Assembly: GCF_000013385.1 (NCBI RefSeq)
Contig: NC_007760.1
Coordinates: 434,001 to 498,000, forward strand
Origin: Anaeromyxobacter dehalogenans 2CP-C
GTDB lineage: Bacteria; Myxococcota; Myxococcia; Myxococcales; Anaeromyxobacteraceae
Length of the DNA: 64,000 nt
Direction of reading: 5' to 3'
In this document: positions 53,373 to 61,637 of the stretch, piece by piece
Layout of the letters: every line of letters starts with the position of its first letter
How positions within the stretch are numbered: position 1 is the stretch's first letter
The notes under the pieces: model-generated
The model's input: only the letters and a program-made list of their open reading frames with translations
Database searches by the model: none
What the model was told of the DNA's origin: nothing
Translations under genes and position numbers: made by a program

Positions 53373-54848
53373 ATGAGCGGCTTCCCGACCCAGGACTTCG
53401 TCGCGCTGGTCCCGGTGGCGATCCTCACGATGGGGGCGCTGGTCCTGCTGATGACCGAGGTGTTCCTCACCTCGGGCCGGCGGGCCTACCAGGCCTACCT
53501 GACCATGGTGTTCGCGGCCGCCGCCGCGGCCTACGCCGCCTGGATGCCGGTGCCCGGCAACGTGTTCGGGCGCCAGGCGGTGGTGGACAGCTTCTCGGCC
53601 TTCGTCACGGTGGTGCTCTGCGCCGGCCTGGCGCTCTCGGCGCTGGTGGGCCAGAGCTGGCTGAACGCCCGCAACTCCGAGCGCGGCGAGTTCTACGCGC
53701 TCGCGCTGTTCGGCACCGCCGGCATGGTGCTGCTGGGCATGGCCACCGACCTGCTCATCGCGTTCATCGCGGTGGAGGTGATGAGCCTCTCCACCTACTG
53801 CCTCGCCGCCTTCCTGCGGCGCGGCAAGAAGCCCGCCGAGGCGGCCTTCAAGTACGTGGTGCTCGGCTCGATCTCCTCGGCGCTGCTGCTCTACGGGTCG
53901 GCGCTGCTCTACGGCGCCTCGGGCTCGACGCTGTTCTCGCTGCTGCCGCGCGGCCAGGGCTCGGCGCTGTACCTCGCCGGCATCGCGCTGGTGGCCGGCG
54001 GCGTCGCCTTCAAGATCGCCGCGGTCCCGTTCCACGCCTGGACCCCCGACGTCTACGAGGGCGCGCCCACCCCGGTGACCGCGTTCATGGCCGCCGGCGT
54101 GAAGACCGCGGCCTTCGCGGTGCTGGTCCGCCTGTTCCTGGCCACCGAGAGCGGCTCGGCCGCCATGTCCACCTCGCTCGGCACGGTGCTCTCCGCGCTG
54201 GCCGTGCTCACGATGATCTTCGGCAACCTGCTGGCGCTGCCGCAGCGCAGCGTGAAGCGGATGCTGGCGTACTCGTCGATCGGCCACGCCGGCTACCTGC
54301 TGGTGGGCGTGGTCTCCGCGGTGGTGGCGGGCGCGCGCGACAAGGCGCTCGCGGGCCTGCTGTTCTACCTCGCGGCCTACACCGCCACCGTCATCGGCGC
54401 GTTCGCCGTGGTCGGCGCGCTGGAGCGCCGGACCCGGGGCGACTTCGAGCCGGCCGACGCGTGGGACCTCGATCGCTTCGCCGGCCTGGCGCGGCGCCGC
54501 CCGGCGCTCGCGTTCGCGATGGCGGTGTTCCTGTTCTCGCTCGCGGGCGTGCCGCCCACCGCCGGCTTCATCGGGAAGTTCTACATCTTCAAGGCGGCCA
54601 TGGGCGCCGGCCTCTACGGCCTGGCGGTGCTGGGCGTGCTCACCAGCGTGCTCGGCGCGTACTACTACCTGCGCGTCGTCCTCTACATGTACTTCCTGCC
54701 GTCGAAGGACGAGGCCGGCGAGGTGGTGCTCTCGGCGCCGTCGCTCACCATCGCGCTGGCCGCGGCGGTGGCGGTGGTGGTCCTGCTCGGCGTGGTGGCC
54801 GACCCGATGGTGCGGCTGGCCCAGGCGGCGAGCGCCATCATCCTGTAG
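53373..54848 (+). CDS. nuoN: NADH-quinone oxidoreductase subunit N
   Basis: This 491-residue antiporter-like subunit is close to the usual length (485). It has [19 protein letters not shown] (conserved Glu), [20 protein letters not shown] and [16 protein letters not shown]. The ATG follows the nuoM stop by one base. It completes the distal membrane arm of complex I, passing electrons to menaquinone. Confidence 0.95.
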
Positions 54849-54960: not shown

Positions 54961-55302
54961 CTAGTGCGCGGCGCGGCCGGCGTCGGCGAGCTCGGCCGCG
55001 CGGAACGGCTTCGGCAGCGCGGTCGCCGCCGGGTGCCGGCGGGCGGCCTGCTCGAGCACGTCGGCGTAGGGGCCGGTCATCACCGGGCGCGCGCCGGCGG
55101 CGGTCGCCGCCGCGAGCACCTCGTCGGCGCCGGGCATGTGGGCGTCCACCAGGCAGCAGTCCACGCCACCCGCGGCGAGCCGCGCGAGCGCCTCGTCGGC
55201 GCCCACGCACACCTCGACCCGGTGTCCGTCCAGCCGGAGCGCGATCGCGAGGGCCTCCCGGAAGTTCCGATCCGCATCCACGAGCAGGAAGCACTGCGCC
55301 AT
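54961..55302 (-). CDS. Single-domain response-regulator receiver
   Basis: This 113-residue CheY-like protein has an acidic pair (LLVDADRNF), phospho-acceptor Asp53 (CLVDAHMPG), MTGPY for the Thr switch and LPKPFRAAEL for the conserved Lys. There is no output domain, so it acts by protein contact or as a phosphate shuttle. Start is ATG 55302 with GGAAG upstream. A hairpin, U-tract and sigma-54 promoter (55319-55423) lie directly upstream, next to the NtrC-type gene, so expression is probably under sigma-54 control. Confidence 0.88.
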   Translation of the reverse strand: MAQCFLLVDADRNFREALAIALRLDGHRVEVCVGADEALARLAAGGVDCCLVDAHMPGADEVLAAATAAGARPVMTGPYADVLEQAARRHPAATALPKPFRAAELADAGRAAH

Positions 55303-55318: not shown

Positions 55319-55397
55319 GAAAAGAAAAAGAAGTGCAAAGCGCAGCTGAAGTGGCGGGGGGGGACCTACTTCAACAGGCTGCTTTGCACTTCTCGCC
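55319..55397 (-). ncRNA. Candidate sigma-54-dependent small RNA or attenuating leader
   Basis: Reading leftward from the predicted start near 55397, AGAAGTGCAAAGC (55393-55381) pairs perfectly with GCTTTGCACTTCT (55341-55329). An inner TGAAGT/ACTTCA stem and an apical loop with eight consecutive C follow. The outer stem runs straight into CTTTTTCTTTTC, a U-rich terminator tract that is very rare in this genome. The product would be about 79 nt. Readthrough would enter the receiver gene (start 55302). The C-rich loop could pair with Shine-Dalgarno sequences; that is inference. Confidence 0.6.
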
Positions 55398-55407
55398 GGC
55401 ACCAAAG

Positions 55408-55423
55408 AGCAATGACGGTGCCA
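55408..55423 (-). promoter_or_regulatory. Sigma-54 promoter
   Basis: Leftward TGGCACCGTCATTGCT matches the -24/-12 consensus TGGCAC-N5-TTGC(A/T) exactly, with GG and GC ten bases apart. The predicted start, about 12 bases past the -12 element, is near 55397, at the foot of the hairpin. An NtrC-family activator gene with GAFTGA lies immediately upstream (55616-57040). The rest of the gap, 55424-55615, holds no gene I can support. Confidence 0.72.
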
Positions 55424-55615
55424 GCCGGTACGCGCGCGCCTGCTCCGGCGGATAGCCCCTCTATCCGGGCACTTGCCAGCGGCGGTCGCCGGACCACTCC
55501 CGGTCCGGTCCCCTCCAATGTCGCAGCGCGATTTCGGAGCTGCAAGATGCCGCTGCAGAAGTGAAACGCGACCCTGGCGCCGGACGCCGTCCCGGGTTCC
55601 GGCCACGCGACCCGG

Positions 55616-57040
<1,425 letters not shown>

Positions 57041-57053
57041 GCCTCCCGGGATC

Positions 57054-60000
57054 TCAGCCAATCCCCGCCTCCTTTTCAACCGGGCCGCCGCCCTCCCCCG
57101 CGAGCGGGGTGAGCGGGAAGCGCAGGGCGAAGGCGGTGCCGGCGCCGGGCCGGCTGGTCACGGCCACCTCGCCGCCGTGCCCCTCGACGATCCGCCGCAC
57201 CACCGCCAGGCCGAGGCCGGTCCCGCTCGCCTTGGTGGTGAAGAACGGCTCGAAGATGCGGCCGCGGACCTCCTCCGGGATGCCCGCGCCGGTGTCCTCC
57301 AGCTCGAGCACGGCCGCGTCCCCGTCCCGCCGCAGCCGGACGGTGAGGCGGCCCCCGCGCGGCATGGCCTGGACCGCGTTCACCGCCACGTTCACCACCG
57401 CCTGGCGCACCAGGCGCGCGTCCATGGGCACCTGCGGCAGCGCCGGGTCCACCTCGCGGAGGATCTCGATGGGCTGGCCGTTCTGCGCGAGCGCGGTGGC
57501 GAGCGCCTCCTCCACCACCCGGTCCAGCGGCTCGGGGCGCACCTCCGGCGTGGACGGGCGGGCGAAGTCGAGCAGGTCGCCCACGATCCGGTTGAGCCGG
57601 TCGGCCTCCTCGCCCACGATGTCGAGCAGCATGCGCGCGTCGCCCTGGGGGCGCAGCATGCGCCGCAGCGAGCCGAGCGAGTTGAAGATGACGCCGAGCG
57701 GGTTGCGCACCTCGTGCGCGACCACCGCCGACAGCTCGCCCAGCGCCGCGAGCCGCTCCTGCTGGATGAGCTGGCGCTGCGCGTGCGCCAGCTCGGCGTA
57801 GCTGCGGCGGAGGTCCTCGTAGAGCCGCGCGTTCTCCGCGGCGACCGCGAGCTGGTTCGCGATGGCGGCCCCGCGCTCGATCTCCGCCGGGCTGAAGCGC
57901 CGGGGGCCGCGGGTCTCCACGATCACCGCCGCGCCGATGTACCGGTCGCGCACCAGCAGCGGCAGGCCGAGCATGGCGCGGATGGAGGGGTCCGAGGCCA
58001 CGTCCTCGCGCACGCGCGGATCCCGCGCCGCGTCCTCGATGGCGATGGGCTCGCGGCGCTCGAACACCATGGCGGCCAGGCGCGGGGCGGCCGCCTCCAC
58101 CGGCACGTCCACGCCCACCGCGGCCTGGGGCAGCCCCCAGGCCGCCCGCACCTGGAGCTGCTCGCGGCCCGGGGCGCACAGCGCGATGGCCGCGCGCGGC
58201 GCGTCCACGATGCGCGCCAGGTTCCGCACGCCCGCGTCGAGCACCTGCTCGAAGTCGAGCGTGGCCACCAGCGAGCGGCCCACCTCGTGGAGCAGCCCGA
58301 GCTCCTCGGCGCGCCGGCGCGTCTCGGAGTAGAGCCGCGCGTTGTCCACCGCCACCGCGAGCTGGCTGGCGATGGCCATGGCGCGCGACAGCTCGCCGGG
58401 CGAGAAGGTCCGGTCCATGCTGGCGGCCGCCACCAGCGCCACGCCCACCGGGTGGTCGCGGACGTGGAGCGGCACCGCCAGCAGCGCCCGGTCGGGCACG
58501 CCCGGCTCGGCGAGCCGGCCCGCGACCGGCGTCCGCGCCTCCAGCGCGTCGCGCGCCAGCGACCGGTCGGCGACCGGCACCGCGGCCGGGCCGATGGGCG
58601 CGCCGCGGGTCGCGGCGCGCCGCAGCTCGCGCCGCCGGTAGTCGTCGAGCAGGATGGTGCAGTCGGAGCCCTGCAGCGTCTGCTTCAGGTGCTCGGCGCC
58701 GGCGGAGAGCACCTCCTCGAGGTCGAGCGAGGAGGACACCACCCGCGCCACGTCGATGACGGTGGAGAGCTCGTGCAGGCGCCCGCGGGCCTCGGCGTAG
58801 AGCCGGGCGTTCTCGATCGCCACCGCGAGCTGGTTCGCGACGGCCGTGACCCGCTCCACCTCCGCCGGCGTGAAGCGGCGCGGGCGCGCGGTGTCCACCA
58901 CCACCAGCACGCCCAGCGGCTCGCCGCGCAGCAGCAGCGGCGCCACGATCGCGGCGCGCGCGCGGTGGTGCTCCACCAGCAGCCGGTTGAGGCCCTCGGC
59001 CTCGGCGTCCGCGTCCTCGACCACGAACGTGCGCCGCTCGCGCACCGAGCGCCAGCTCAGCCCCTCGCCGGTCGCGAGCGCGGCCGAGGCCCGCTCCAGC
59101 GCCGCCGCGCCGCCCTGGCTGATGGCGGCGGCGCGCAGCGCCAGGTGGACCGGATCGTAGAGGTGGACGACGCCCACCGCGGCGCCGAGCAGCCGCCGCG
59201 CCGCGTCCACGCCCTCGGAGAGGACGTGGTCGAGGTCGAGGGAGCCGGCGACGGTGCGGCTCATCTCGTTCAGCAGCGACAGGTCCTCGACCCGGCGGCT
59301 GGCCTCGGCGTACAGCTCGGCGTTCTCCAGCCCCACCGCCAGCTCGCCGGCGAGCGCGTTCGCGAGCGCCAGCTCCGGATCCGAGAAGCTGCGCCCCGCG
59401 TCGTCGAACAGGAACAGGACGCCGCGCGTGGCCTGGCGGGAGGTGAGCGGGACCACCAGCAGCGCGGTGGGCGGCAGGCCCTCGCGGCCGCACAGCGCGC
59501 TGCGCGGGTCGCGCGAGGCGTCCTCGGTCCAGGCGGGCGCGCCGCGGCGGAGCGCGTCCTCCGCGAGCAGGTCCTGGCCCGCCGGGATGCGCAGCGCCTC
59601 CGCGCGCAGCGGCCCGCCCCAGCCGCCCACGCCGCGGAGGCAGCGCTCCTGCGGATCCACCAGCAGCACCGCGGCGCCGCGGCAGGAGAGGGCGCTCGTC
59701 ACCTCGCGGCAGCCGTCGTCGAGCAGCGCCGGCACGTCCCCGGGCGCGTTCCCGAAGATGCGCAGGGCGAGGGCGTGCACGGCCTCGAGGTCGGAGAGGC
59801 GGCGGCGGACGTCGGCGAACAGCCGCGCGTTCTCGACCGCCACACCGATCTGCACCGCCATGGCCGAGAGCAGCGTCACCTCGCGCTCCGCGAACGGGCG
59901 CGCGGTGCGGCGCCCGAGCACGATCGAGCCCACCGCGGCCTGGCCCTTCGCGAGCAGCGGGACCGCCATGGCCGCCTGCAGCCCCTCGGTCCGAGCCACC

Positions 60001-61637
60001 TGGAACGCGGTGGGATCGGCGTCGTCCGGGTACCGGGCCGGCCCGCAGCGCTTCACGGCCAGCCCGGGCAGCGACTCGCCCAGCCCGAGCCGCGAGGCCC
60101 GCCGCAGCGTCTCGGCGGAGAGGCCGTGGCCGGCCACCAGCGCGAGGCGCTCGCCCTCGCGGACGAACGCGGCGCCGGTGTCCGCCTGGAACGTCTCCAC
60201 CACCCGGCGCAGCGAGGTGTCGAGCAGCAGCACCGGATCGAGCTGCGCGCTGCCCATGGCCACGTCGTTGATGAGCGTGAGCTCGGCCACGCGCCGGCGG
60301 AGCGCGCCCAGCAGCCCCTGCGTCTCGACCGCGCTGGCCACGTGCGGGCCGACCGCGCCGAGCAGGCCGAGCCAGGGCCGCACCGCCTCCAGCTCGTCGC
60401 GGAACGCGGCCACCATCACCCCCACCGCGCGGCCGCGGGCCACGAGCGGCACCCAGATGCCGGCGCGGATCCCCTCGGCGCGGAGCGCCTCGGCGCCGGA
60501 CTCGGCGGCGTCCACCGGGACGGCGCGGGCCGCCCGGTCGCGCAGCACCTCGCCGATGCGCGCGGTGACGGGCACGCGCTCCAGCCGCGCCTGGACCTCG
60601 GGGCTGGTGCCGCTCGCGAACGTCCGGACCAGCTCGCGGCCGCCCTCGTCCACCAGGTACACCGCCACCACCGCGCAGCCGGTGGCGGCCGTCAGCACGG
60701 TGGTGACCTCGGCGAAGAACGCGTCGAGGTCGGGGGCGTCCCCGGCCAGCCGCCCGACCCGGTTCAGGAGCGCCAGGTCCGCGTTGTGGCGCGAGAGGTC
60801 GGCGATGGTCCGGGCCGCGTCGAGCGCCGCGGCGAGCTGCGCGCCGAACAGCCGGAGCGCGCCCACGTCCTCGCTCCGGAGCCAGCGCGCCGCGACGAGC
60901 AGGCCCAGCGCCGGGCCGGCGCGCGCCTCCACCCGGACCACCACCGCGCGGGCGATCCCGATGGCGGCGATGGCCTCGCGCGTCGCCGCCGCGCGCGGCT
61001 CGGGCACGAACGCGGCCGCCTCGGCGGGGAGGTCGTCGGAGTAGGCCGCGCCCGCGTCCCACGCCAGCCGGAACATGGGCGGCCAGCGCCCGAGCTGGCC
61101 GTCGAGCGGCCGCTCCAGCGCGCGCTCCAGCCGCGCCGCGGCGGGCGGCGGCAGCGCCGACCAGTCCACCCGGAGCCCGTCGCCCTCCGGGCGCGCCAGC
61201 AGCACCAGCGCGGACAGCTCGCCCGCGGCCCCGCGCAGCCGCTCCAGCACCGCGGCCTCGCTGGGCTCGCGCTGGAGCGCGGCGCCCAGCTCCGCGAGCG
61301 CCTCCAGGCGCGGCCGCCGGGTCGCCTGCGCGGTCGCGTCCCGCACCTCGACCAGGACGTCGCGGCCGTGCACCCGCACGCGCAGCTCGACGGCGCGCCG
61401 CGTGCCGTCGGGCAGGAGCACGCCGACCTCGTACTCGGCCGGCGCCGCCTCCCCGCGCAGCCGCCGCTCGTGGCGCTCGACCACCCGCGCCATGTCCTCC
61501 GGGGCGATCAGGTCGAGCACGTCGAGGCCGACCATGGTGGGGACGGTGCGGCCGGCGAGGGCCGCGGCGCCCTCGCTCGCGTACACGACCTTGCGATCGC
61601 GCACGACCAGCGAGCCGCCCTGGAACCGCTCCGCCAT
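57054..61637 (-). CDS. Soluble hybrid-sensor histidine kinase with PAS and about seven GAF domains
   Basis: This very large kinase (1527 residues) has no membrane segment. A PAS domain (about 1-105) is followed by seven GAF-like units of about 160 residues, each ending in a linker such as AVENARLFADV (about 596), GLENAELYAEA (764), AIENARLYAEA (934), AVDNARLYSET (1091) and AAENARLYEDL (1261); two earlier units end near 269 and 431. His1307 is in VVAHEVRNPLGVIFN, then EDTGAGIPEEV and GTGLGLAVV. Its ATG overlaps the selB stop. Ligands are unknown. Confidence 0.9.
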   Translation of the reverse strand: MAERFQGGSLVVRDRKVVYASEGAAALAGRTVPTMVGLDVLDLIAPEDMARVVERHERRLRGEAAPAEYEVGVLLPDGTRRAVELRVRVHGRDVLVEVRDATAQATRRPRLEALAELGAALQREPSEAAVLERLRGAAGELSALVLLARPEGDGLRVDWSALPPPAAARLERALERPLDGQLGRWPPMFRLAWDAGAAYSDDLPAEAAAFVPEPRAAATREAIAAIGIARAVVVRVEARAGPALGLLVAARWLRSEDVGALRLFGAQLAAALDAARTIADLSRHNADLALLNRVGRLAGDAPDLDAFFAEVTTVLTAATGCAVVAVYLVDEGGRELVRTFASGTSPEVQARLERVPVTARIGEVLRDRAARAVPVDAAESGAEALRAEGIRAGIWVPLVARGRAVGVMVAAFRDELEAVRPWLGLLGAVGPHVASAVETQGLLGALRRRVAELTLINDVAMGSAQLDPVLLLDTSLRRVVETFQADTGAAFVREGERLALVAGHGLSAETLRRASRLGLGESLPGLAVKRCGPARYPDDADPTAFQVARTEGLQAAMAVPLLAKGQAAVGSIVLGRRTARPFAEREVTLLSAMAVQIGVAVENARLFADVRRRLSDLEAVHALALRIFGNAPGDVPALLDDGCREVTSALSCRGAAVLLVDPQERCLRGVGGWGGPLRAEALRIPAGQDLLAEDALRRGAPAWTEDASRDPRSALCGREGLPPTALLVVPLTSRQATRGVLFLFDDAGRSFSDPELALANALAGELAVGLENAELYAEASRRVEDLSLLNEMSRTVAGSLDLDHVLSEGVDAARRLLGAAVGVVHLYDPVHLALRAAAISQGGAAALERASAALATGEGLSWRSVRERRTFVVEDADAEAEGLNRLLVEHHRARAAIVAPLLLRGEPLGVLVVVDTARPRRFTPAEVERVTAVANQLAVAIENARLYAEARGRLHELSTVIDVARVVSSSLDLEEVLSAGAEHLKQTLQGSDCTILLDDYRRRELRRAATRGAPIGPAAVPVADRSLARDALEARTPVAGRLAEPGVPDRALLAVPLHVRDHPVGVALVAAASMDRTFSPGELSRAMAIASQLAVAVDNARLYSETRRRAEELGLLHEVGRSLVATLDFEQVLDAGVRNLARIVDAPRAAIALCAPGREQLQVRAAWGLPQAAVGVDVPVEAAAPRLAAMVFERREPIAIEDAARDPRVREDVASDPSIRAMLGLPLLVRDRYIGAAVIVETRGPRRFSPAEIERGAAIANQLAVAAENARLYEDLRRSYAELAHAQRQLIQQERLAALGELSAVVAHEVRNPLGVIFNSLGSLRRMLRPQGDARMLLDIVGEEADRLNRIVGDLLDFARPSTPEVRPEPLDRVVEEALATALAQNGQPIEILREVDPALPQVPMDARLVRQAVVNVAVNAVQAMPRGGRLTVRLRRDGDAAVLELEDTGAGIPEEVRGRIFEPFFTTKASGTGLGLAVVRRIVEGHGGEVAVTSRPGAGTAFALRFPLTPLAGEGGGPVEKEAGIG

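Follow-up and report, generated by a model that had tools for sequence, protein, structure and literature searches.

A 64-kb stretch of Anaeromyxobacter DNA (the window) very probably holds the pxr ortholog of this genus, the whole locus being read as a sigma-54-dependent RNA circuit driven by a PxrK-PxrR pair. Model hits, gene order and a paired enhancer motif suggest that the RNA is probably a compact ortholog of Pxr with one hairpin, and one that the model of Rfam (RF01812) misses. In Myxococcus, Pxr is a small RNA restraining fruiting-body formation; it is produced in an L and an S form and prevents development. The M. xanthus pxr gene lies downstream of pxrK and the NtrC-type pxrR, has a predicted sigma-54 promoter, and is followed by an NADH dehydrogenase gene (PMC5684412, PMC5568312). 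Pxr has been described as arisen within Cystobacterineae (PMC5568312, PMC8538405), and Anaeromyxobacter makes no fruiting bodies (PMC8538405). An Anaeromyxobacter pxr may already figure in Chen et al. 2014. The locus, its conservation, its similarity to Pxr, the promoter, the enhancer motif and the form of the terminator are described below from sequence analysis, and the features are collected in Table 1.

Table 1. Predicted features of the pxr locus in the window, in the direction of transcription of the RNA.
Feature	Position	Strand	Basis
Sensor histidine kinase, PxrK counterpart	57054..61637	(-)	Pfam: PAS, six GAF stretches, HisKA, HATPase_c
Sigma-54 response regulator, PxrR ortholog	55616..57079	(-)	Pfam: receiver, Sigma54_activat, Fis HTH
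Enhancer site 1, TTTCACTTCTGCAG	55553..55566	(-)	9/10 to TTKCA-N4-TGMAA; similar place in relatives
Enhancer site 2, TTGCAGCTCCGAAA	55532..55545	(-)	9/10 to TTKCA-N4-TGMAA
Sigma-54 -24/-12 promoter, TGGCACCGTCATTGC	55409..55423	(-)	Sequence match; conserved in related loci
Predicted small RNA (Pxr ortholog), ~78 nt	55320..55397	(-)	Promoter to U-tract; fold; covariation; model matches
63-nt hairpin (outer stem, inner stem, apical loop)	55330..55392	(-)	Fold and covariation
C8 apical loop, corresponding to the Pxr SL1 C-run	55356..55363	(-)	Invariant C columns; SL1 alignment
U-tract UUUUUCUUUU, with the outer stem an intrinsic terminator	55320..55329	(-)	Sequence
Single-domain receiver, 113 aa (accessory)	54961..55302	(-)	Pfam: Response_reg
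nuoN-like NADH dehydrogenase subunit, convergent	53373..54848	(+)	Pfam; same syntenic boundary in M. xanthus

The order of the window genes is kinase, NtrC-type regulator, hairpin, receiver and nuoN-like gene, in agreement with the pxrK-pxrR-pxr-NADH dehydrogenase order of M. xanthus; the initial annotation had missed this likeness to Pxr, which extends to the RNA core. The kinase C-terminal region has a homolog upstream of PxrR in most genomes of the family and in many others. With the cut-off applied, PxrR has a single match in each genome, and its sequences cluster by family in a tree. Against the LuxO model it scores 361 bits, far under the cut-off of 800. The kinase and NtrC-type pair had been proposed in the initial annotation to adjoin a dedicated sigma-54 small RNA, and the conservation of promoter, stem pairing and C-run loop supports this.

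The sigma-54 element and the hairpin after it, with its C8 loop and its U-tract, are real as originally described and lie on the minus strand. The predicted start at 55397, reckoned from a -12 GC whose C is at 55409, is the one that had been claimed. The outer stem, given before as 13 bp, comprises 12 bp on folding (GAAGUGCAAAGC/GCUUUGCACUUC), a minor correction; inside it a bulge with two more pairs leads to an inner 8-bp stem plus three pairs. The minimum free energy of the hairpin is -38 kcal/mol, with z = -6.3 relative to dinucleotide shuffles. The C8/G8 run is the only G or C homopolymer of at least 8 in the window, and besides the U-tract of the hairpin only two T5/A5 runs occur. Runs of at least 6 are fewer in the window than a simple Markov expectation, with 10 G-runs versus 36 and 6 C-runs versus 33. 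A generic terminator scan called no site at the hairpin, a miss that its stem and loop limits may explain. TGGCACCGTCATTGC is the sole exact TGGCAY-N5-YTGC in the 64-kb window. Across the 5.0-Mb genome, the exact pattern occurs 21 times versus 54 for the reversed control. Being rarer than its control, the motif alone is no evidence of a promoter; its conservation is.

By DNA search the stretch turns up within the genus and in a second genus of the same family, and reading 3′ of each PxrR match adds more genera and families f5 and f9. In an alignment of 14 homologous hairpins (A1), 94.9% of the cells pair under the structure given above, and at most 54% do so with slid partners. Cells changed on both sides number 27 versus 9.1 in shuffles, and pairs with two-sided change 8 versus 4.9, a value of 8 being reached by 7 of 500 shuffles; the count of further pair types is the one measure that falls below the shuffles. 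Seven C columns are invariant. Forty model-aligned sequences show two-sided changes in 20 of the 25 pairs, in an alignment that leans to the structure. Another alignment (A2) was dropped, as it contained antisense matches of the near-palindromic hairpin. The initial annotation had staked its reading on stem pairing and the -24/-12 element being kept in relatives, and many genomes retain the promoter, the pairing and the C-run loop. By these sequence comparisons the hairpin looks like a gene.

Two covariance models of the hairpin were used. R1 was trained on f1 and f5 hairpins only and applied to 147 genomes of the class; R2 is broader, and its training includes four Myxococcaceae sequences. 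The hairpin model found 23 further loci which are neither training sequences nor Pxr, a list made after three weak hits that lack a promoter (G017:20537, G075:277779 and G094:260570) were set aside as false. The promoter was left out of the model, and random positions reach 9 against TGGCAY-N5-YTGC in 0.15% of cases (~0.0015 each). Nonetheless 22 of the 23 hits have a promoter scoring 9-10 out of 10, and the remaining one scores 8. The distance from promoter to stem is 11-16 nt in all 23, and 11-17 nt across the related loci. The longest C-run per hit is 5-10. Copies in f2, f3, f4, f7 and f8, which may be orthologs or paralogs, are not beside pxrR where compared. The model gave no RNA hit in f10, and the f9 loci (G143, G144) were recognised by synteny and by eye, outside the model hits.

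Upstream of the promoter, TTKCA-N4-TGMAA motifs scoring at least 8/10 are found in the window and in most related loci, with a chance expectation per 200 nt of 0.14 sites scoring at least 8 and 0.089 scoring at least 9. Most of the 23 model hits have at least two such sites, mostly spaced by 18-24 nt. The sites stand 32-33 nt apart in L164 and both L165 copies, and overlap or stand closer in L144, L161 and one L166 copy; L162 has one displaced site. The tandem f5 copies G040b and G040c have no site within the 200 nt searched. A genome-wide search for exact pairs of the motif gave 11 places in 10 of the 24 family genomes, every one upstream of such an RNA, and a control pattern has no match in the 24 genomes. 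The window's own genome lacks the exact pattern, because both sites there carry one mismatch. The activator-RNA link suggested at the outset gains support from these exact pairs, which precede the RNA wherever they are found in the family. Judged by its motifs, the locus has the predicted sigma-54 promoter and upstream enhancer region of a pxr gene.

The link to Pxr itself was examined with Rfam. Under a permissive threshold, Pxr comes out as the top match of the region. Taken alone this match is weak, covering 31 nt of the C-loop stem with a score of 17.6 bits against a gathering cut-off of 80; many divergent Myxococcaceae loci likewise fall under this cut-off. Among the Myxococcaceae genomes compared that have both a Pxr over the cut-off and an R1 match, the R1 match and the Rfam Pxr locus coincide in all 39, and the R2 match agrees in 54 of 54 genomes. 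A model match directly 3′ of the PxrR match, on the same strand, is present in 97 of the 112 genomes compared. In the R1 match to a Myxococcaceae Pxr, the inner stem and C-run fit well and the outer stem fits more poorly. The covariance alignment with Myxococcus-type Pxr identifies an SL1 with its C-run loop in the window. Changing one C to A in the SL1 loop is enough to inactivate M. xanthus Pxr (PMC5684412). Separate SL2 and SL3 are absent from the window, which has a single hairpin and then the U-tract. The window RNA is thus classed as a divergent ortholog rather than a typical RF01812 member; the likeness takes in the SL1 core and the promoter region and stops short of the whole RNA. By eye, some of the divergent f6 hits resemble intermediates between the two forms.

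Searched with a strict pattern, 84,980 species genomes yielded 13 stretches, titled Anaeromyxobacter, Myxococcales, delta-proteobacterial and, for one, only Proteobacteria. Outside the class, a locus of 40% GC in G188 (C85:3484-6846, L210) carries kinase, PxrR, enhancer, promoter and C-loop RNA in the same order. Its PxrR is 67% identical, and two TTTCATATATGAAA sites are followed by TGGCATTATATTTGC and then by a C-rich-loop hairpin with a U-tract. Since the PxrR of G188 adjoins f1 in the tree, transfer of this module is possible; as judged from sequence, either transfer or deep ancestry may account for it.

Copies and displaced units were also observed. Similar sigma-54 C-loop hairpins lie away from pxrR at five loci of f1 genera g2, g3 and g5 (L146, L155, L145, L150, L157), and G023 and G030 have both a pxr-locus hairpin and one elsewhere. 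Several RNA copies per genome, each with its own promoter, are found in G040 (L095, in tandem), G138 (L141, L164, L165) and G139 (L142, L166). In G015 (C89) and G022 (C115), the enhancer-promoter-RNA-receiver unit lies ~1.7 kb and ~3.6 kb off pxrR, respectively, apparently as a block. Two marginal model hits outside the class, G147:C8:24725-24795 and G155:C252:43377-43450 (L208, L209), are C-loop hairpins whose TGGCAC-N5-RTGC element stands tens of bases farther upstream than usual; an NtrC-type gene stands beside the one in G155.

The initial annotation had offered two functions, a dedicated small RNA and attenuation of the receiver. The receiver gene starts 17 nt past the U-tract, leaving little space for a second promoter, and gene-order comparison places a receiver behind most of the family's pxr-locus hairpins as well as at the displaced G022 copy. 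The hairpin could then be mainly a 5′-leader attenuator, at which sigma-54 transcripts stop unless a signal permits read-through into the receiver. However, the RNA retains its promoter and terminator without a receiver in G033, f5, the Myxococcaceae Pxr loci and G188, and the tandem G040 copies each have their own promoter, which makes this explanation unlikely. No separate receiver gene was detected in the G033, f5 and Myxococcaceae loci examined, and the receiver is thus accessory; constant co-occurrence with a downstream receiver is not seen in relatives. Because many loci keep the RNA without it, receiver attenuation becomes a secondary idea, not supported as the main function; the dedicated small RNA is supported. 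Expression of the window receiver from this sigma-54 promoter would need read-through past the terminator, and such read-through is possible in Anaeromyxobacter itself.

Two other explanations have still less in their favor. The absence of SL2 and SL3 and the Rfam score far under the cut-off would fit an unrelated sigma-54 RNA, whose likeness to Pxr is a convergent C-rich loop in a shared neighborhood; yet PxrR orthology, synteny, the enhancer pair, the promoter distance and the 39/39 match on Pxr loci must then all coincide, which is highly improbable. With its U-tract and its position 3′ of pxrR in the same orientation, the hairpin might also merely terminate pxrR and yield no RNA product of its own. 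That is hardly credible, for a conserved sigma-54 promoter at nearly fixed spacing separates pxrR from the hairpin, and hairpin, promoter and enhancers occur together away from pxrR in G015, G021 and G022.

For the preferred reading, a Pxr ortholog in a sigma-54 circuit, we infer transcription, PxrR binding, seed pairing and a physiological role as follows. The PxrK-like kinase would control the NtrC-type activator PxrR, which would bind the two TTKCA-N4-TGMAA sites, lying ~110-145 nt 5′ of the promoter, and drive sigma-54 transcription of a ~78-nt RNA ending at its own terminator. The RNA would keep the SL1 core of Pxr, a hairpin presenting a C7-9 loop, with one long stem enclosing this core and doubling as terminator, where Myxococcus has separate SL2 and SL3. 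The exposed C-run would most likely serve as the seed of antisense pairing with G-rich mRNA sequences, among them ribosome-binding sites, depending on nutrients or growth; the initial annotation had likewise proposed that the loop could mask G-rich Shine-Dalgarno sites. In some Anaeromyxobacteraceae, read-through may also give the single-domain receiver.

Direct targets of Pxr were still unknown in 2025 (PMC11928866). In Anaeromyxobacter genomes, G8 ahead of an ATG was matched more often than the control, with no gene common to different species; no target is therefore claimed. Among these G8 runs (L211-L240), a few precede proteins that by eye resemble exopolysaccharide enzymes (G014, G019).

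The apparent presence of a diverged Pxr in a non-fruiting soil bacterium suggests that the switch predates multicellular behavior or stands apart from it. The chances are about even that PxrK-PxrR-Pxr is an ancient Myxococcota module, older than or independent of development, belonging to a C-loop RNA family that extends beyond the class, has a nearly dedicated enhancer-binding protein for each RNA, and acts, in bacteria that do not fruit, on genes of nutrient or growth state. A diverged ortholog together with its entire predicted circuit in Anaeromyxobacter, a genus that does not fruit, and its relatives in other families and outside the class offer simple hosts for studying Pxr targets and the action of the C-loop, and the covariance model widens a family that Rfam currently misses.

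The closest known system is Pxr of M. xanthus and its relatives, which shares the position 3′ of pxrK/pxrR, the sigma-54 promoter, the paired enhancer, the C-run SL1 loop and the NADH dehydrogenase neighbor. It differs in having three stem-loops in ~108 nt, against one 63-nt hairpin and a U-tract in the window, and in its role in Myxococcus fruiting, against a host genus without fruiting bodies. By their general descriptions, two other circuits are alike in plan. In CbrA/CbrB-CrcZ of Pseudomonas, a two-component NtrC-type activator also drives a sigma-54 small RNA, although CrcZ is longer than the window RNA and binds Hfq/Crc through A-rich motifs. LuxO-Qrr of Vibrio likewise combines a sigma-54 activator with a small RNA, and Qrr differs in its pairing sequence and its Hfq dependence.
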